Part shown: piece after piece, positions 175-13,735 of the stretch
Layout: every line of letters starts with the position of its first letter
Position numbering within the stretch: the stretch's first letter is position 1
NCBI GenBank assembly: GCA_014802335.1
Contig: JAAVCL010000003.1
Span: forward strand, 41,902-105,901
From: Bacteroides sp.
GTDB lineage: Bacteria > Bacteroidota > Bacteroidia > Bacteroidales > Muribaculaceae
Direction: 5' to 3'
DNA length: 64,000 bases
Notes under the pieces: model-generated
The model's input: the letters and a program-made list of their open reading frames with translations, nothing else
What the model was told of the DNA's origin: nothing
The model's database searches: none
Translations under genes and position numbers: made by a program

Positions 175-296
175 AAGTAAATGACGGTACCTTTGCATAC
201 ATGTTACCTTAATCTTCATTTGGTTATGGATTGTCGACAAGTTGGATCTCCCAAGTCCCTTTCTTTGTCGCACCTTTACGACAAAGAAATATGCCT

Positions 297-1961
297 TTAT
301 TGTTTTCTACGATATTTCTGATTGGGATCATTGGGCTTATCAGGAATAGTACGTTCCAACACTCCCGCTCCCACCAAATCATAGATATACTTTTTTCTGT
401 TATCAAAGTGGTCTGAGACTCCGGCTCGCTGAAGAATCTCTTGTCTATTCCGTGGTATATTACAGAAGTTTCTAATATCCTGCTGTTTCTTTGTTAACTT
501 CAACTTGGTCGTATTTTGAGGAAGTTGGTCGTGAACTGGGTCGGTTTTTGTCAGAGCCGGGTCGGTTTTTGAGTTAGATTGATCGCGAACTGGATCGGTT
601 TTTGTCAGAGCTGGGTCGGTTTTTGAGTTAGGTGGGTCGTTAACTGGGTCGGTTTCTATCAGAGCTGGGTCGGTTTTTGAGTTAGGTTGGTCGTTACCTT
701 GGTCAACTCTGCGAGGAATCGTTATGACAAACTCGTTGGCGGAATGGGTTATTTCCCGTTGATCAATGCCATTTGAGAAAATCGCGTTTGGATCATACTC
801 AAGAGCTCGACGAACTCCACTGCCTGCGCCTGTATAGGGGAGCAGATAGTTGGCATTTGTGAAGAGGAACATATTGCGTGGCATCGATGTGCCATTTTTG
901 ATATCCTCTACAGTCAGTCCATTCGGTAGCGCACCGGGACTATGAATCTCCAAGCGATTGTCAAAAATAAAGATGCGTATAGGAGCCTTGATATTTAGGG
1001 AGCGATGCACTAAAGCGTTTACTGTATATTCTATAAGACTTTCGTATGGAATCTCTAATTGCCCGAGCGAATTAAAATCCTTTTCCACTTGCACTTTGCG
1101 GAGATTGCGGGTAAAGAAGTTCATAATGGTGCGGAACTGATGCAAGAGGTTGCCTTCTATCTCCATATCGTGCATCTTGTCACGAAACTGTATGCCTCCG
1201 ACTGAGTTGCCTAAGAAACTGATGCACTTGGCAGTCATTACAGGAAGCCAACGCTGAGTGTATTTTCCGAAAAGAAGTATGGCTGCTACGGTCAACATTC
1301 CATCCGGACGAATGAACCTCAGATTCTTTAACAATCTTTCGATTGTTGTTCCTGTAATGACAAACTCGGCCATCTGATCAAGTGAATAATCCTTCATATT
1401 CAACTCATCAATATGTTTCCCCTTAAACACAGGTGAGAACCTACTCATCAAATACAGTTTGATAGTGTCGGTATCAAGGTCATCCAACGTAGCACCCGGC
1501 ACAGCAGCTTCATCGGGATCAAAATTCCCACATCCACTCATCATCTCTGCAAGTTCCGAATTGTCGAACACCTTGCGCTTATCAGCACCATTCTTAACCC
1601 ATATCACACCCTTATTATCGTGGTATGGCTTATTCTTGCCTTCTGGAATTGTGGCAATAACGACTGCACCTCCGGTTACTGAGACATTCTCAACTTCAAT
1701 CAAGATATTTGGAATAACATTCTCAGATGCAATATTAGTCAGAAGATTAGTAGTCTCCTGAAGTTCCTTATAAGATAGCGCATTAATCTCACCAGACTTA
1801 TCGTTTATACCTATGATAAGCCTTCCGCCGCGAGAATTGCTGAACGCAACCATCTCGCACCCGATCTCATACTTATCGTCTTTATTGGCCATCCGTTCTT
1901 TGAACTGTACCTGCCCGGCCTCCGCCAAGTCTCTCAATTGAAGTATATCTTGCTCAGTCAT
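297..1961 (-). CDS. AlbA_2/Schlafen-type putative ATP-binding/DNA-binding protein with C-terminal winged-helix-like region
   Basis: N-terminal E-K-R...GRLIIGI...GVIWVKNGADKRKV pattern typical of the AlbA_2 family; TDP-rich linker; C-terminal HTH-like segment. Confidence 0.8.
   Translation of the reverse strand: MTEQDILQLRDLAEAGQVQFKERMANKDDKYEIGCEMVAFSNSRGGRLIIGINDKSGEINALSYKELQETTNLLTNIASENVIPNILIEVENVSVTGGAVVIATIPEGKNKPYHDNKGVIWVKNGADKRKVFDNSELAEMMSGCGNFDPDEAAVPGATLDDLDTDTIKLYLMSRFSPVFKGKHIDELNMKDYSLDQMAEFVITGTTIERLLKNLRFIRPDGMLTVAAILLFGKYTQRWLPVMTAKCISFLGNSVGGIQFRDKMHDMEIEGNLLHQFRTIMNFFTRNLRKVQVEKDFNSLGQLEIPYESLIEYTVNALVHRSLNIKAPIRIFIFDNRLEIHSPGALPNGLTVEDIKNGTSMPRNMFLFTNANYLLPYTGAGSGVRRALEYDPNAIFSNGIDQREITHSANEFVITIPRRVDQGNDQPNSKTDPALIETDPVNDPPNSKTDPALTKTDPVRDQSNSKTDPALTKTDPVHDQLPQNTTKLKLTKKQQDIRNFCNIPRNRQEILQRAGVSDHFDNRKKYIYDLVGAGVLERTIPDKPNDPNQKYRRKQ
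533..694 (-). repeat. 54-bp in-frame tandem repeat (about 3 copies) encoding NSKTDPALxxTDPVxDxx
   Basis: aactggRtcggttt... recurs at about 534, 588 and 642, a 54-bp period. Confidence 0.85.
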
Positions 1962-2075
1962 ATGTAATCTTAAATATTAGAGAACTATACTATTGACATC
2001 CTCCTTTTTATAACAGCTCAAGTATCGTGAGGATTTAGAATTATACTAATTCGTACACAAAGAATACCACGAGTT

Positions 2076-3116
2076 TTAAACTAATTTCATTTTCTCGCAG
2101 TTAGAGATTATTCTATCTAAAATCCTAAGAAAATCACTTGTATCCAAAAAGTAACTTGGATAAGCTTCCTGAAGTTCCTTGATTTTCGATACGGAAACAA
2201 GAACTACTGCATTTTTTGCATCTTGAGAAACACGTTCCAATCTGGAGTAGTCGTTCATAGCAGATGTCTCATCATTATATGGATTTACATTAACCCTTTT
2301 AGTCTTAAAGTTTATATTTAATATATAATATTTGTTGGTATAGTTTTCTTTTATTGCAAAATTATTTGTTACTCGAAGGGCTTTTAGAGTATCACAAAGA
2401 TTATATTTTTTATCAAGGACATATAAAAGTTTCATCAAATCCCGGGTTGTTAGACCTTGATTTGAGTGAACAGGAAGAATATTCCGTTCTTCCTTAATTG
2501 CAAATAAAGAACTTACATATTTGAAAAATTCTAGCCACTCGTCAGCTCCTTGGCTTGATTTAAGGGGAGTTTTAGTAACTAAACCAGCTGTTTCAACCGC
2601 CATCGCCCAAAAATGTTGTAACTTAGTCCGTACCTGAAGTTCTACTCGGAGCCCATTATAGTCATTATTGTCTGAAACAAACTTATAGACAAAATGCACA
2701 CTTCGATATCCACTTTCTTTTGGAAATTCTATATAATTTATGGGCGATTTTTCCAGCATGAATCCTTCAGGTACATTTGCCTGCAAGATTGTGTACAACT
2801 TATCTAAAGTCTTTATATTCGGAAGAACCACGCGAAGACCACCTATATCTTGCATCCCTCCTAATTTCATCTGGGGATTGAGGTCAAGTTTATATATAAT
2901 TGAAGTAAGTCGTTTTAATCTCCGGGATGTAAAGGTTGCATTAATTCGATTGTTATTTATAATTTCATTTATACCAGTTTGGAGTTTATCGAGAACGAAT
3001 AAGTGAAGTGATCGCCAATCATTTATTTTTGCAATGGCGTTTTTAACAATATCATCTTCTCTAGATGAGATAGCAATTTCTCCGGCCTTATCAATTTGAT
3101 GTCTTCCGTATTTCAT
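2076..3116 (-). CDS. RelA/SpoT-domain (alarmone synthetase-like) protein
   Basis: Motifs GLRVV, SGYRSVHFVY and LRVELQVRTKLQHFWAMAVE; no HD hydrolase domain recognised. Confidence 0.8.
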   Translation of the reverse strand: MKYGRHQIDKAGEIAISSREDDIVKNAIAKINDWRSLHLFVLDKLQTGINEIINNNRINATFTSRRLKRLTSIIYKLDLNPQMKLGGMQDIGGLRVVLPNIKTLDKLYTILQANVPEGFMLEKSPINYIEFPKESGYRSVHFVYKFVSDNNDYNGLRVELQVRTKLQHFWAMAVETAGLVTKTPLKSSQGADEWLEFFKYVSSLFAIKEERNILPVHSNQGLTTRDLMKLLYVLDKKYNLCDTLKALRVTNNFAIKENYTNKYYILNINFKTKRVNVNPYNDETSAMNDYSRLERVSQDAKNAVVLVSVSKIKELQEAYPSYFLDTSDFLRILDRIISNCEKMKLV

Positions 3117-3251
3117 TTGTATTTAATTTATGGGTCTGCGACTATGCCGTAGATATTTGAGGGTTTAATTATATAAGATCTTCTTTGCTAAGTAACTTGC
3201 TTTAGCAAATTTTTATCTTTGTATCTGTGATGAGAGACTCAATATAAAATG

Positions 3252-5699
3252 TCATTTTAAAAAGCCATATAGATATATTTTAGGCTCTATTTGTTTTGCT
3301 AATTCTTTTAATTTGTCCCGAAGATTATTGATAAGTTCTGTATAGCGAGTATCGTCACTATCAGATTTCATTTGGACATTACCGTTCTTTAAGGTCTTAG
3401 CTCCTTGAAAATGCATCTTTATATCGTAAAGTGATGCATTCGGGTTTGAATCCTCTTTTGAATGATAGTACCGCCATAGCTCTCGACCTGCATCCATAAC
3501 GGCAGTGGCCTCAGCAGAGAACAAAAGAGGTTGAGAATTATCTTCTGCGACAGAAAATAGCGTAGCGTCCTTCGTTGGTCTTTTTTTGCCCTTTATATAA
3601 TCGTTCAACGCGTGACTTTTGAATGTATCTCTTGCACCAACTTCTTCTTCGGAGAAGGGAATCCAATGATTTGTAGCTTCTTGACAACTTATTGCGTTAT
3701 CAAATATGGCATAAACCAAACAGTCATGATGAAAATTAGGATCATCCTTCCAACTATTTAAGGGGAAAAGATACTGATCTCTATCATTTAACCACGTTTT
3801 ATTAATTACTTTTCGAATGACACTATAAATTGACATCTGAATCACATTATTAATAGTAATAGGAGTGAACAAGCTATATTTTATATCATTCGCGGATAAT
3901 TTATTCGTTATAAATATCTGTGTATTATGTTGAATATCAGTTCCATTCATTCGAAGATATCCTAATATTGAATTATTCTTCTTATCATAAAATTGACGTA
4001 GCCACTCGATTATATATTTATCATCCGCATAGGAACGAATGTTCTTATAACCTATTTTTTTACCTTGTGCATTGAAAACATCAGCCACTATGTGGGAAAA
4101 ATTCTCTTGCTGATTTGAATCCCAAATCATGAATCCAATTGGAAACTGTCCTTTCACATTATCAAAAGTAGAGGCCGGTACCACAAAAATACGTTTAAGT
4201 TTTATATCAAATTGCTTCCTAAATTTGATAAAATTAGAGGCTTGAAGATTTTTTAATGTTGAAAAGTTAGCAATGACTGTGCCAGGAATTTCTTGCTTTA
4301 TTCTGAACAAAAATTGAGCAAATAATTCTCTCGCAGCTGTTCCAATTAATCCTTGGAATCTTTTATACGTTTCAGTCTCTTTTGCAACTCCTGATATATT
4401 CTTACCTGTATTTTTTAGCTGTTTTGCATCTGAATGTTCCTTGTACGGAGGATTAATATAAATAACCAATTTTTTGCGTTTTTCTTCATCTGCGATAATC
4501 TCTCGCAGACCATTTGGAAGTTTATCGAAGGAGTCATTAAGAAAATCAAATTGAAATACATGTGTTGGGAGGAGGTTTGCTCCATTCTTAATACGTTCCT
4601 GCATGACGTCAACATCGGCTTTATCCAAAGTTGAAGCCCAAATCTTATACTTATCCACTAGACCGTTTAGTAGATTACCTGTACCCGCAGCACAGTCCCA
4701 TATATAGTATTCATCTTGCCAATTCTCTCCTAACTCGTCTTCGAGATATAATTGTGATAACTCTACCCATTTTTGAGGTGTGAAATAAGATCCTTTACGT
4801 TCCCTGACATCTTGTGGTACTAGAAGATCGCGACGTTTGATTATATAATCCCAGTACTCTTCCTTAGGAGGACGGTCATAACAATTCCAAAATTGTGTAT
4901 GTGCTTCTTGGTCATCAATGAACTTTGCTTTACTAGAATTGAAAACACCCATTGCCGTCCTATTACGTCCAAGTTCATAATATGTCTCACGAAGAACTAC
5001 ATGGAGCTTATCCTGAATAGTCTTATTTTTAATTGATAGAATATCTGCAAGGAAGAAGTCAGAGTCCAGAACACCTTGTTTTTTTGCTTCATCCCAATTA
5101 ACATCAATGGTTGGTTTAACAGTTTTTAGCCATTTTTGATAGATAACGACAAAGTTATTTTTACTTATACGGATTCGCGATATCTTCTTCTTTCCGATGA
5201 TAAAGTTAGATTTAATGAAACGAGCTAGTTCCTTTTCATCAGATCCATAATCGAAGGAGTACATCGAAATACCGAAAACATTTTCTACCAACTTCAAAAC
5301 TATTTGGAATTCTTTAGTAGAGTGATCAGATGGTGTAACGTTCCAGTTGAAATCGTTGGCATAGAAAACCTCCTGAATTTCAGAATAAGGGATAAAAACA
5401 ATCCGGTCAGCATCGAAAGCTCCGATGAATTTTGGAGGTAAGTAAGATTCAAATGTACGTGCCTTGCCGATAGTAAGAATTAATTGAGCGAATGATTCTT
5501 CAATTGGTTTAGAACCTTTCTTCGCCTCTGCCCATAAAAGAAATTCATTTTCAGAAAGAGATCTCTCATTATTAGGATTAGGGACGGCAACAGAGAAGTC
5601 TATATCACCAAGAATATGCGTGGTGTCATATGCTGAAAACCAATCTTGAGCAATATGATTTTTTAGTTCTTCTTCTCGTATATTATGTGGGTAAGCCAT
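3252..5699 (-). CDS. Type IIG-like restriction-modification protein (N6-adenine methyltransferase with candidate N-terminal PD-(D/E)xK nuclease)
   Basis: Methyltransferase motifs WDCAAGTGNLL and INPPY; N-terminal DIDFSV...FLLWAEAKKG. Confidence 0.8.
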   Translation of the reverse strand: MAYPHNIREEELKNHIAQDWFSAYDTTHILGDIDFSVAVPNPNNERSLSENEFLLWAEAKKGSKPIEESFAQLILTIGKARTFESYLPPKFIGAFDADRIVFIPYSEIQEVFYANDFNWNVTPSDHSTKEFQIVLKLVENVFGISMYSFDYGSDEKELARFIKSNFIIGKKKISRIRISKNNFVVIYQKWLKTVKPTIDVNWDEAKKQGVLDSDFFLADILSIKNKTIQDKLHVVLRETYYELGRNRTAMGVFNSSKAKFIDDQEAHTQFWNCYDRPPKEEYWDYIIKRRDLLVPQDVRERKGSYFTPQKWVELSQLYLEDELGENWQDEYYIWDCAAGTGNLLNGLVDKYKIWASTLDKADVDVMQERIKNGANLLPTHVFQFDFLNDSFDKLPNGLREIIADEEKRKKLVIYINPPYKEHSDAKQLKNTGKNISGVAKETETYKRFQGLIGTAARELFAQFLFRIKQEIPGTVIANFSTLKNLQASNFIKFRKQFDIKLKRIFVVPASTFDNVKGQFPIGFMIWDSNQQENFSHIVADVFNAQGKKIGYKNIRSYADDKYIIEWLRQFYDKKNNSILGYLRMNGTDIQHNTQIFITNKLSANDIKYSLFTPITINNVIQMSIYSVIRKVINKTWLNDRDQYLFPLNSWKDDPNFHHDCLVYAIFDNAISCQEATNHWIPFSEEEVGARDTFKSHALNDYIKGKKRPTKDATLFSVAEDNSQPLLFSAEATAVMDAGRELWRYYHSKEDSNPNASLYDIKMHFQGAKTLKNGNVQMKSDSDDTRYTELINNLRDKLKELAKQIEPKIYLYGFLK

Positions 5700-5701
5700 A
5701 C

Positions 5702-5928
5702 TTAATAGAGGTTATTACCATTGAGTAATTGGGGTGGATGGACATTAAGAATTGATGCAATTTTGACAAGCATTTTAAGAGTGCGTAGTATTGGAGTACC
5801 AGCGAGGGACGGTAGCTTAATTCTTACCTAACTGCTCGGCACGCATTTCCCTTTAAGACTCTTTTAGCTAATGCTACCATTAGCCGATTAATGCGTTCAA
5901 ATTCTATATCTTTTGTTTCTGTTGACAT
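5702..5928 (-). pseudogene. Frameshifted XRE/HTH-type regulator just upstream of the methyltransferase
   Basis: Three-frame reading on the minus strand: MSTETKDIEFERINRLMVALAKRVLKG (frame 1), EMRAEQLGKN (frame 2), RIKLPSLAGTPILRTLKMLVKIASILNVHPPQLLNGNNLY* (frame 3); the last resembles an XRE HTH C-terminus. Confidence 0.55.
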
Positions 5929-6302
5929 GAAACAATTAATTGATGTTATATGTAAAATTACAAAGAAAATTCGGATTAGGCAAGAGACTGAGAACGAAAA
6001 TGATAGCTCTATACAGAGCAAATGTGAGAGTTGTCGGGTGTATCGCTGGATTTTGCTATTATTTGGCTTAGTGAAGGCGGTTCAGGCGGACAAGTGCGCC
6101 GATTGGTTTTGGCGAATGGAAGCCATTATCTCCGCGGAGTAAGGTCTTTTATCGAGCCGTCATCGTCAAGTCGGGTCTCAAACTTCACACCGGCAAATTC
6201 TTCTTGATTCTTGGTAACTGACTCGCTTCTTTCAAACACGGAGATAGCGATTGTCTGACTAATAACCAAGTCGGACTTGGTGATATAACCATATTTTATT
6301 AA

Positions 6303-6339
6303 CTTTATCACCGTGGTAATAATAACCGTGGTGATAAAG
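6303..6339. terminator. Imperfect inverted repeat, candidate terminator
   Basis: ctttatcaccgtggt...accgtggtgataaag; outer 10 bp perfectly complementary. Confidence 0.4.
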
Positions 6340-6366
6340 TATGAAATTCTATAATCGGAGAAAAGA

Positions 6367-6425
6367 ATTACATCATGTCGGCTCCCTACTCGGCCTATTT
6401 CATCCTCACTTGACGATTTTACGGA
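6367..6425. repeat. Right copy of the 59-bp direct repeat; overlaps the 3' end of an LRR gene
   Basis: Alignment with 116-174. Confidence 0.9.
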
Positions 6426-7785
6426 TGCCCTCGGCAGTGCGTGAGATGTAAACGCCGCGTCCAAGACTCTCGAAGCTCTCTCCCACGTATACTCCGCCCA
6501 ATGTATAATAACCGTATACACCCGGCGCATATTCACTTCCCGAACTTGAATCCGCTTCGATCTCATCAATTCCCGTCACTATTTCTATCGGCTTGATGTC
6601 GCTAAATAATCTCCACGGCGCAAAAGTGCGCGCGGCCTCGATACCTTCCGGTTTTACGTAGAGCGTTGCTGATGCATAATCTTCCTCTCTGACGAAGTTG
6701 TAATTTATCAAGAATGGCGGATCATCAGTGTTGTAAATAATTGTTGACAAATTCTGTATATATTCCGGATTCATATCAGGATGCCCGTAGTATGGACCGT
6801 AATAATTAAAACACTTAGGGAAGTTATTCCATAAAAATGTGTAATCTAAATCGAGATATAAATTTGGACGTCTCTCGTATCTGGTTACTTTTTCAGCAAG
6901 GGAGGAACTTTGGTCAAAAAATACGCTTCCTGCTATATGAACTTCGCAAAGGTTCAGCATATTAAAAAAAGGAGAACCGTAAATTTTAGTTCGCTCGGGC
7001 AGAACTATTTTTTCCATTTCGCAATTATTTGCAAATGCACCGTCCATGAGTTCACAGCCTTCTCCAAGAGTAAATTTCTTCATATAGAAATTATTGGCAA
7101 ATGCCTCTTTCTCTATCGTGACATTTGCAGGAATACAAACACTGTCTAACTTCGTAAAGTTGAAAGCATAAGTGCCAATACGTCCCACTGTCGGTGGTAA
7201 ATTAATTTTTTTAATAGGAGAGCCGGTAAACATACTGTATGGTATCTCTGAAAGATAATCGGGCCACTCCACCTCCTCCAAACCGGTCTGAACAAAAATA
7301 TTCGCTCCTATATAACTTATATCATCAGGCAGCTTACTGAAGTCAAATATTTTAAGGTTTGAACAATATCTAAATGCTCCATACCCTATCTTTTTAAGTC
7401 TGTTTGCCCGGATATTTATAATTTCGATTATCGTGTTGTCCATGAAAGCTTCTCCTTCAATAGATGTAACCGAGGGGGGTACGTTAAGAGTTTTTACAAC
7501 CGGGGCTATGTAATCAATAGTTGTGACAGTATATGTGGAGTTGCCTATTTGCACCCTTGGCATGATAGACATTTCTTCTCTTATTTCTGTTTCCTCACGG
7601 GGCAAGCGCACTGATGCTGTCTTCTCCTTTTCCGAGAGGATGGTATAGATGAATCCGTCAATTGATACGCTTTCAGATTCGGTCGGATTGCTTGTGTTGC
7701 CACCAATGCTTTGCAGACTGCCCATACAAGGCAACAGGCAAATTACAATTGCCCTGATAATGTTCCGCATAATCTCTCTTTTCAT
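6406..7785 (-). CDS. BspA-like leucine-rich repeat secreted protein (copy B)
   Basis: Signal peptide; LRR_5-like AFxxCSNLKxFDFSKLP units; C-terminal YYTLGGVYVGESFESLGRGVYISRTAEGIRKIVK. Confidence 0.85.
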   Translation of the reverse strand: MKREIMRNIIRAIVICLLPCMGSLQSIGGNTSNPTESESVSIDGFIYTILSEKEKTASVRLPREETEIREEMSIMPRVQIGNSTYTVTTIDYIAPVVKTLNVPPSVTSIEGEAFMDNTIIEIINIRANRLKKIGYGAFRYCSNLKIFDFSKLPDDISYIGANIFVQTGLEEVEWPDYLSEIPYSMFTGSPIKKINLPPTVGRIGTYAFNFTKLDSVCIPANVTIEKEAFANNFYMKKFTLGEGCELMDGAFANNCEMEKIVLPERTKIYGSPFFNMLNLCEVHIAGSVFFDQSSSLAEKVTRYERRPNLYLDLDYTFLWNNFPKCFNYYGPYYGHPDMNPEYIQNLSTIIYNTDDPPFLINYNFVREEDYASATLYVKPEGIEAARTFAPWRLFSDIKPIEIVTGIDEIEADSSSGSEYAPGVYGYYTLGGVYVGESFESLGRGVYISRTAEGIRKIVK

Positions 7786-7818
7786 ATCTGAATAATAAAG
7801 CAGTTAAAATCGTTTTCG

Positions 7819-10035
7819 TCATTTTATGATTTTACGGATACCGTCAGTAGTGCGGCAGATGTAAACTCCGCGGCTAAGACTATCGAAGTTGTCTCCTACG
7901 TATACTCCGCTGAGGGTATAATAACCGCAACATCCGGATTCCGCACCGGCCTCTTCCGCATAATCCAAGTCTGTATTATCAATCCCAGTCACAATATCTA
8001 ACGGTGCGATATTATGAAAGTTTTTCCAGGGGTTTATAACCCTTGCTCTGTTCAGTCCCTTTGGTTCGACATATAACGTTGCGGTGTCATAATCCTTCTG
8101 ACGCACGATGTCATAGTCTCCGATATATTGAGGAGCATCCGTGTGATATATAACCTTTTTAAGATCTTGCTTCCATACAGGGCTGATAGAAACATGAGGA
8201 TCATAACCGTGATCGGATCCATAATCTTCTTCATATCCAAAATGTGAAGGAAAAGAATAATAACCAAACGGATTATTTCCAAGATAGTATGCCATCTCAT
8301 CATCCCGTGCTAAAAGTTGCGCTCCGTTGTAAAAATGCACATCAGCTGCAAGCTCGAGCTCACTCAGATTCAGCATGTCGAAAAAAGGACAACCATAAAT
8401 CCGGGTGCCGGAAGGCAATACTATTTTTTCAAGATCAGAATTGTAGCTCAGGCAAGTTGAATAAAGCCGGCATCCTTCTCCCAATCTTAGTTCTTTCAAG
8501 TCAAAGTTACATGCAAAGGCTTGTTCCATCAACAAGACATTAGCGGGAATAGAAAGAGTATCAATTTTACACCACGCAAAAGCCGCCGTTGAAACGGTGG
8601 TAAGGGTTGGTGGTAATTTTAAATTTGTAACTGCAGAGTAAAAAAACATTTTCTCAGGTACGACCGGAAGGTGTTCAGGCCATTCAACATCGGTAATGCC
8701 CGATCTGAAGAAAACACGATTCCCTACCTTTTCCGGGTCGGACGGTAGTTTCGAAAAATCGAAAGAACTCAGGGCACTACAGTTCGCAAATGCGTTTTCT
8801 CCAATATATTCCAATCTGTCACATTCGATATTGATTTGCTCTATTGGGGAGAAGTTAAATATTCCGCCCGGAATTATCTTCAGTTCTGCCGGCCAGGTAA
8901 CCTCTTTAAAAGAGGTGTTATAAAAGATTCCGTACCCTAATTTATCGGAATCCGTGGGTAGTTTGGAAAAATCGAAAGAATTCAAGGTAATACACTTCGC
9001 AAATGCGTACTCTCCAATATATTCCAATCTGTCACATTCGATGTTAATTCTCTCTATTGCAGACTCATAAAACGTTTTGGAAGGAATTGTCCTTAGATCT
9101 GCAGGCCAGTTAATCACCCGCATATAGGTTCCACTAAAGATTCCGCCCCCTAATTTATCGGGATCCGAGGGTAGCTTGGAAAAATCGAAAGCTGTCAGTT
9201 CTTTACAGTATGCAAAAGCTTCCTCTCCGACATATTCCAATCTGTCACATTCGATATTGATTTTCTCTATTGGGGTATAGCTAAATATTCCCCTTGGAAT
9301 TATCTTTAGTTCTGCCGGCCAGTTAACCTCTTTAAAAGGGGTTTTATAAAAGATTCCGTACCCTATTTTATCGGGATCCGCGGGTAGTTTGGAAAAATCG
9401 AAAGAACTCAGAGAACTACAGTTAGCAAATGCTTTCTCTCCAACTTCTTCCAATTCGCTGCCTTCTATATTGATTCTCTCTATTGCAGAGTCATAGAACG
9501 TTTTAGGTGGTATTGTCTTTAGTTCTGCAGGCCAGTTAACCTCCTTAATACCGGTTCTACTAAAGATTCCGTCCCCTAATTTATCAGGATTCGTGGGTAG
9601 TTTGGAAAAATCAAAAGAACTCAGAGCACTACAGTAATTAAAAGCTTCCTTTCCGACTTCTTCCAATCTGTCACATTCAAATTCTATATGTCTTAAATCA
9701 AAAAAGGATGCAAATGCACGTTCTTCAATTTATTTTACTGTTGCAGGTACTGTTAAGGATATTTCTCCACTAAAAAATCGGGGTGTGATTTTACGTATTG
9801 TCGTTACCGTGTAGTCAATACCATCTATATTTACTATATCAGGTATTACAAACTCTTGCTTATTACGCGATACATCTTTCATAAGATCTACTGCAACGGT
9901 CCTATCCTCTTCTGAAAGGACTATATACCTAAAATCATCAATCCAGATTTGTACAGCACTTGCAAGCAACCTTACACTCAGTAATAAACAAACAATCATA
10001 CACCGCATTACGACACTGATGGTCTTTCTTTCCAT
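7819..10035 (-). pseudogene. BspA-like LRR protein (copy A) interrupted by one in-frame stop
   Basis: ORFs 9730-10035 and 7819-9666 share a frame; the stop TAA (9730-9732) aligns with TAC (Tyr) of the copy at 13976-15340 (TVPATVKYIEEWAFASFFDL). Confidence 0.8.
8750..9670 (-). repeat. Coding tandem repeat, 213-bp (71-aa) LRR modules
   Basis: CDRLEYxGExAFAxC...FDFSKLPxDPDKLGxGIFxxT modules; ccaatctgtcacattcgat recurs at about 8814, 9027 and 9240. Confidence 0.85.
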
Positions 10036-11968: not shown

Positions 11969-13735
11969 ATGTATAACAAACTAAAAATTAAAACTATGCT
12001 AAAAGATTCTTTAAAAACGAATAAAGTAGTGGCGGCCAATAGTGACTCGGGAAGCAGCGAGGATTCTACATATAAATATAAGAACCCTACCCCAGGTGAA
12101 ATTCCTATAATTGGCTATTTGGTATCCCATAACAAAAGTTTTGAACTTAAGAATGTAAATCCTCAAGATATAAAAGTTGAGGAAAATTTCACTCCCTACG
12201 TCCCCGACGAACCGGGGAATCCAACTGAATTGGATGATCGGCAGAATGTTCTGAATTTTTCCGCTGCCGGATGTAATCTCGCTTTAAATGGAGTAGTCAC
12301 AAATAAGGACACTAACTATATAGAACTTCAAAAATATGCTTACAACAAATTGGGATTGATTGTGTCTAATATAGGAAAGTTATGTGCAGAACCGGTTGCT
12401 AATAATACCAATAATGAAGGTCCTTTCGAAAGTTTTATAAATGCATTTAAAGCTGATTCTAATATAGAAGATGATAAATATAAAAAGGTTGCAGCTTTTC
12501 TATTATGTGATGAACCTTCTCTGGAGCTATTAGAGGGTAGTGAATATATTAATTCAAATACCCTGTCCTTTTATTACAAACGGCTTGTAGAGAAATGTAC
12601 CCCGGAAGGTTTGGATGCATTAGTGCTTATAAACCTGGTTGCTATTCATGGAAAAAATAGGACTGCAACTGAGTATCAACGTTATCTGGATGCTTACGAG
12701 GTAAATTTTAATCCATTGTTTTATTCTGTTGATGTATATCCGATTCTTCAGTGGAATCCTTTGGTAATTACAGAAAATAGCCTAAGTGGAATGAGCAGCT
12801 CCCTGCGCGCGGGTGAGATTGTGCAAGTGCATGAGCGCTTTTACAGAACGCTGGAAATGGTCTCGGCCCAAGCGCGCAATAATAATAATAAGCCATTTTG
12901 GTATTATCCGCTTGTCGGTGAGCATTTTAATCATAATAGTTTTTATTATCCCGCTCAAAAAGAAGAGTATATGCGGTACTCCATATTCACCGCTTTGGCC
13001 TATGGTGCTAAGGGAGTGGTATTATGGCGTATGCTGGAGAATATAGACGATAGGAAAAATCTATTTCTGGTACATGACCACGCTGATTATAACCCCGAAA
13101 GCTATATGCGTCATCCTATTAATGCTGACCGCACTCGCAGTCCGTTCTGGTATTATGTGAGACGCATAATCAGGGAAATTAAGCGTTATGAGTCTATTTT
13201 CCTTAATTCTAAGGTGGTCGATACCTTTCATACGGGACTTGAGAAAATGGCAGATTATGCTCAATCTATTTATGACCCTTCAACACCAGGTGTACTTCCG
13301 TACGTGAAACATGGCTGGGCGCCGGGGGTAGAAAATCCAATCCCTCCTGAAACTCGCACAGCCGAGGTCTGGGGACTCAGACCGTTGAATTCTGACAGTA
13401 GGACTGTTTTTAAATCGATAGAGAGTCCAGAAGAAGGCTTCGGTGTTCTTGTTTCTCATTTGGAAGATGACAACAATGCAGAAGATCAACAAGAGCAAAA
13501 GAAAAACGCACAATCCCCGGTTAAAAAAAATTATTATATGGTGGTGAATCATGATGCTGCCAATGCCCAAAAGATTCGCATCAATTTCTTGAGCGGATAT
13601 AAGATTAAGGAGCTGACACCTCGCAGTTCAAATAATATCATCATTAATAATGAGATAAACACAACAACCACAAGTAGTATTGAACGACTGTTGGCACCGG
13701 GAGGCTATATTATTTTTCAACAGATAAATGATTAG
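11969..13735 (+). CDS. TIM-barrel/glycoside-hydrolase-like protein (paralogue 2), no signal peptide seen
   Basis: IPIIGYLV..., AAFLLCDEPS, TALAYGAKGVVLWRM, YESIFLNSKVVDTFH, ERLLAPGGYIIFQ; ATG at 11969 preferred to GTG at 11951. Confidence 0.65.
   Translation: MYNKLKIKTMLKDSLKTNKVVAANSDSGSSEDSTYKYKNPTPGEIPIIGYLVSHNKSFELKNVNPQDIKVEENFTPYVPDEPGNPTELDDRQNVLNFSAAGCNLALNGVVTNKDTNYIELQKYAYNKLGLIVSNIGKLCAEPVANNTNNEGPFESFINAFKADSNIEDDKYKKVAAFLLCDEPSLELLEGSEYINSNTLSFYYKRLVEKCTPEGLDALVLINLVAIHGKNRTATEYQRYLDAYEVNFNPLFYSVDVYPILQWNPLVITENSLSGMSSSLRAGEIVQVHERFYRTLEMVSAQARNNNNKPFWYYPLVGEHFNHNSFYYPAQKEEYMRYSIFTALAYGAKGVVLWRMLENIDDRKNLFLVHDHADYNPESYMRHPINADRTRSPFWYYVRRIIREIKRYESIFLNSKVVDTFHTGLEKMADYAQSIYDPSTPGVLPYVKHGWAPGVENPIPPETRTAEVWGLRPLNSDSRTVFKSIESPEEGFGVLVSHLEDDNNAEDQQEQKKNAQSPVKKNYYMVVNHDAANAQKIRINFLSGYKIKELTPRSSNNIIINNEINTTTTSSIERLLAPGGYIIFQQIND

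Follow-up and report, generated by a model that had tools for sequence, protein, structure and literature searches.

The window – the whole 64,000-nucleotide stretch of DNA analysed here, on contig C3 of a draft genome that is 83.6% complete – probably contains a 6.2-kb inserted modular defence operon of mobilisable-element origin, in which an XRE regulator gene and its promoter come first, a replaceable core follows, an AlbA_2 gene forms the tail, and the parts would act in layers. The core here comprises a gene for a one-chain type IIG/IIL-like R-M enzyme and a CapRel gene. The kinds of protein are already known, and the new part of the finding is the recurrent XRE header, for which a limited search of open PubMed Central text yielded no published description. 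The features of the locus are as follows.

116-174, no strand assigned: left copy of a 59-bp direct repeat, which doubles as the native 3' end of the gene on the left
297-1961, minus: AlbA_2 / Schlafen-like gene (554 aa; SLFN_AlbA_2, HATPase_c_4 and a C-terminal winged helix)
524-704, minus: in-frame 54-bp tandem repeats (repeat family D1) coding for a Thr/Asp/Pro-rich linker of the AlbA_2 protein
2076-3116, minus: CapRel homologue (346 aa; fused toxSYNTH and pseudo-ZFD)
3252-5699, minus: putative single-chain type IIG/IIL-like R-M enzyme (815 aa)
5702-5928, minus: XRE header regulator, a pseudogene, aligned with intact XRE genes
5953-5960, minus: altered promoter -7 box TAATTTTA, where 29 of 35 headers have TAnnTTTG
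6098-6245, minus: remnant of the gene lying between MobC and XRE in locus L001 (mobilisation-linked, 228 aa)
6367-6425, no strand assigned: right copy of the direct repeat; a BspA-like LRR gene (6406-7785) overlaps it with its 3' end

A preliminary description of the locus had placed AlbA_2, RelA/SpoT and R-M genes together with an HTH relic on the minus strand, with no housekeeping gene among the three, and this arrangement is borne out, with gaps of 114, 135 and 2 bp in order from the AlbA_2 gene to the relic. The proposed role in defence also stands, supported by the R-M-like enzyme, the CapRel-type abortive protein, the Schlafen-like protein and the regulator relic. The direct repeat that bounds the block was absent from that description.

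Insertion site and mobile-element traces

The block (175-6366) lies between direct repeats that define its point of insertion, a mark of integrated mobile elements. The two copies agree at 58 of 59 positions and are the only two in the genome, a search with a 51-bp core and up to three mismatches giving no others. The neighbour on the left (265 aa, its gene starting before the window) has orthologues that share its C-terminal end HYIISAPYSAY.., and in the left repeat copy the code for this end continues into sequence complementary to the right LRR gene's 3' end. The simplest history would be insertion of the 6.2-kb block between two convergent, overlapping genes. No integrase or relaxase is present within the block, and its one trace of a transfer apparatus is the mobilisation-linked gene remnant.

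Two other origins were considered and rejected. An integron-like 59-base element does not fit, the repeat being direct, lying outside the block's genes, and being explained by two neighbour gene ends. A viral origin was discarded because viral scans with CapRel and AlbA_2 as single queries gave no relative, and profile scans gave more distant relatives only. A near-perfect 39-bp palindrome (ACTTTATCACC...GGTGATAAAGT) lies within the insertion close to its right end, at 6302-6340, and the BspA-like LRR genes adjoining the insertion site (6406-10035) resemble one another at their 3' ends.

Predicted proteins of the core and tail

The 815-aa R-M protein has no match in Pfam or PADLOC, in which it differs from the DrdV/MmeI class, and none in NCBIfam above the cut-off. 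Alignment with 9-15 relatives nonetheless reveals conserved motifs (E/D50...E58-A59-K60...Q72, FTP, DxxxGxGN and NPPY). The first is PD-(D/E)xK-like, with an acidic residue at 50, E58-x-K60 and Q72 kept across 15 relatives in a region where the model is of low confidence, and the others represent motifs X, I and IV of a gamma-class N6-adenine methyltransferase (FTP at 306-308, DxxxGxGN at 335-342 and NPPY at 416-419). The suggestion that a PD-(D/E)xK nuclease and a methyltransferase are fused in one chain is supported by these motifs, and DrdV, MmeI and other type IIG/IIL enzymes combine the same elements. The structural model has a pLDDT of only 64 and finds its best PDB matches in DrdV, CamA, MmeI and LlaBIII; its C-terminal region matches TRD-bearing enzymes and may hold a target-recognition domain of its own in place of a separate S subunit; the relatives stand alone. 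With the low-confidence model counted against it, assignment to the one-chain type IIG/IIL-like enzymes is supported. Relatives are widespread, occurring in 34 of 393 genomes of the order, and those on plasmids are labelled 'hypothetical'. Several are broken by stops or frameshifts (L146, L039 and L129), so the enzyme appears to be lost often, and a fragmented relative (43%) without gene annotation is carried by the mobilisable Helicobacter pylori plasmid pUM157 (L243).

The 346-aa protein contains a RelA_SpoT domain (Pfam, E 2e-18) and matches the PADLOC candidate PDC-S33 (E 1e-103). Residues 1-337 align to residues 12-370 of 7ztb/9erv in a full-length match (E 6e-30), and structure prediction, proposed earlier as a check, gave an AlphaFold model (pLDDT 78) whose top fold matches are CapRel structures (TM 0.71). 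The key residues of CapRel SJ46 are R79, R116, Y155, Y352 and Y355 (PMC9712102), to which R66, R95, Y137, Y319 and Y322 correspond in the alignment, such that the ATP-coordinating Arg pair (R66, R95), the G-loop Tyr (Y137) and the autoinhibitory YXXY motif (Y319-P-S-Y322) are all kept. The toxSYNTH domain and the C-terminal pseudo-ZFD antitoxin domain lie in a single ORF. The protein thus resembles the CapRel proteins SJ46 and Ebc in full-length domain layout, in these residues and in fold, whereas identity to them is 28-33% and they occur alone in prophage rather than inside an R-M operon. From alignment and model we conclude that it is a CapRel homologue, predicted to form a self-contained fused toxin-antitoxin phage sensor. 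A stringent-response enzyme was ruled out, since CapRel matches the whole of the protein and SAS/RelA matches only part of it. The closed SJ46 enzyme is freed by binding of a phage capsid protein, and toxSAS of the CapRel kind are described in PMC11782079 as pyrophosphorylating tRNA CCA ends; a protein working in this way would therefore need no partner gene.

The tail protein matches SLFN_AlbA_2 (5e-22), HATPase_c_4 (4e-13) and Fic-like_C (6e-9) in Pfam. Its domain order is identical to that of the auxiliaries adjoining BREX and BREX-related loci, which join a Schlafen RNase to histidine-kinase-like and wHTH parts (PMC12839542), and a BREX locus in genome G150 contains a 48% relative. Unlike the BREX-linked proteins, however, the subfamily represented here has Gln in place of the second catalytic Glu. 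The catalytic acid triad of SLFN13 is E205, E210 and D248 (PMC5862951); the equivalent positions read E14, Q19 and D54, so that the full acid triad is absent, and because Gln occupies the second position in all 11 of the 11 aligned subfamily members, RNase activity is doubtful.

Taken together, these parts would most likely act independently, in layers. The R-M enzyme would methylate the host site and cut unmethylated incoming DNA; CapRel would be kept closed by its C-terminal domain, and binding of a phage protein to that domain would open the enzyme, which would then pyrophosphorylate tRNA 3' ends and stop translation. The AlbA_2 protein, its RNase site lacking one catalytic acid, is probably a nucleic-acid-binding auxiliary or regulator. 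The XRE protein would normally time or limit expression, and since it is dead here, control would have been lost or taken over.

Decay, selection and exchange of parts

The HTH ORF earlier called degraded is a real XRE relic: compared with the intact XRE genes that occupy the corresponding position in G213, G233 and L001, it has two deletions (1 bp and 5 bp) and a nonsense codon. The dead XRE gene and altered promoter box may mean that the operon is silent. It is conceivable, if rather unlikely, that the whole island is dying, with regulator and promoter broken, only a fragment of the mobilisation gene left, and the three genes that are still intact being silent leftovers; the XRE lesions, the changed -7 box and the truncation of the mobilisation-linked gene all fit such a history. 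Set against it are three long intact ORFs with dN/dS of 0.05-0.08 (R-M versus G233, 0.075; CapRel versus L001, 0.054; AlbA_2 versus G213, 0.065), pairwise values that reflect the other lineage as well. Purifying selection on the three genes, as these ratios suggest, speaks against prolonged neglect even though the regulator is dead.

Exchange of the core is seen in loci drawn mostly from draft genomes. In G213, two GmrSD genes replace the R-M and CapRel genes, and DNA identity to the window is 78% over the header at 5717-6089, 89% at 6098-6143, and 88% over the AlbA_2 gene at 641-1966. An AlbA_2 relative at 88% lies beside an N6-methylase and a specificity gene (G248), and the L001 order is XRE, type I R-M, CapRel (86% amino acid identity to that of the window) and a truncated AlbA_2. 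Two further genomes have the R-M enzyme, an AAA ATPase and then AlbA_2, preceded in G031 (two contigs with 76 identical bases in common) by XRE, and in G123 by an XRE fragment at the contig start. The search for neighbourhood conservation recommended in the preliminary description therefore gave a divided outcome, the fixed trio failing to appear and an XRE - R-M - [extra gene] - AlbA_2 layout with swapped parts emerging within Muribaculaceae. The genes are thus co-located beyond chance, as an interchangeable chassis rather than a fixed trio, and the earlier interpretation is partly supported. In L001 the same AlbA_2 5' end occurs twice (9051-9248 and 12496-12991); the two copies enclose another AlbA_2 gene and two additional genes, and this looks like a cassette insertion with target duplication.

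Plain defence-island clustering, a random gathering by a mobile element with neither frame nor header, is an unlikely account. Defence genes generally cluster, layouts vary, and AlbA_2 genes are common; at about three per genome, chance adjacency is itself unlikely, and clustering would account for part of what is seen. It does not predict that header and tail should be retained at 78-89% DNA identity around unrelated cores, as they are between the window and G213, or that XRE relatives should repeatedly be the first gene, with fixed promoter and operator spacing.

A cooperative system, as first envisaged, in which CapRel and AlbA_2 back up the R-M enzyme or sense its failure and all three are mutually dependent, is very improbable. 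In its favour are the tight spacing on one strand and the fact that both CapRels of the family, in which close relatives are rare (2 of 297 genomes), are flanked by an R-M gene on one side and an AlbA_2 gene on the other. Against it, the gaps reach 114-135 bp, the closest AlbA_2 relatives adjoin other R-M types, neither AlbA_2 nor CapRel lies beside R-M relatives in any of about 31 order-level loci within the sequence available (several ending at contig ends), and CapRel has no partner in seven loci from Flavobacteriia/Pedobacter, six on plasmids and about 79 on viral contigs. Two 'caprel' matches near order-level R-M relatives are long proteins, consistent with housekeeping RelA/SpoT. With each family solitary elsewhere and the fixed R-M, CapRel and AlbA_2 trio showing no conserved co-occurrence in unrelated genomes, the joint system was rejected because the three are seldom found together beyond a single bacterial family, an outcome that the preliminary description had itself named as refuting it.

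The XRE header family

Relatives of the XRE protein were found in 87 of 188 family genomes, using a profile built from five defence-linked XREs, and loci were ranked by similarity to it. Forty loci among the best matches were retrieved and 39 could be judged. A defence or R-M gene lies downstream in 32 of these 39 top-ranked loci (by PADLOC, Pfam and seed profiles), a proportion biased upward because the ranking profile came from defence-linked members, and with some calls resting only on similarity to tested neighbours; three of the others are probable defence loci and four are not. The systems headed in this way include R-M of type I, II, IIG, III, GmrSD (type IV) and BcgI-like kinds, as well as Zorya, Gabija, DISARM, BREX type 4, Dnd/Pbe, Olokun, TmtA, HKD-Snf2 and PDC-S31. 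As a counterexample, one of these four, a close XRE relative, stands alone among purine/pyrimidine biosynthesis genes in the window's own genome (L339; G000:C17, 9901-10122, minus). The same genome carries an intact XRE header before an Eco57I-like type II methyltransferase operon (L319; G000:C22:1-6305), and this XRE could act in trans on other headers.

The sequences upstream of XRE, not all of them independent, have TAnnTTTG close by in 29 of 35 instances (1.2 expected), and 12 of the 35 (0.01 expected) have the palindrome TATGYTNNNNARCATA. This gapped motif was missed by simple palindrome counting; it was seen by eye and evaluated post hoc against first-order Markov resamples. Where both elements occur at the usual place, the palindrome is about 43-49 bp before the -7 box. 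It is absent from the window copy and from the header subgroup to which that copy belongs.

Small regulators heading defence loci have precedents. A type I R-M island headed by RptR, in which DarTG2 is embedded (PMC12255303), likewise begins with a small regulator and contains an abortive module. RptR differs from the regulator found here, occurring mostly in gammaproteobacteria and in association with type I R-M, whereas XRE heads many types of system in Muribaculaceae. WYL regulators adjoining defence loci (PMC9122601) are similarly comparable to the small regulator that heads this R-M operon. We propose tentatively, and with slightly less than even confidence, that one Muribaculaceae XRE family heads at least a dozen unrelated defence operons with a shared promoter layout, often with TATGYTNNNNARCATA as a putative operator and often with a Schlafen-like tail, such that cores could be swapped under common control and intact XREs elsewhere in a genome might control several defence operons simultaneously.

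The layout suggests that gut Bacteroidales swap defence cores while keeping the regulator and the tail gene. If XRE is indeed a shared controller, then a single protein and a single operator would suffice for direct tests of how anti-phage immunity is regulated across the family, and the header would provide a handle for finding unknown defence genes beside it.
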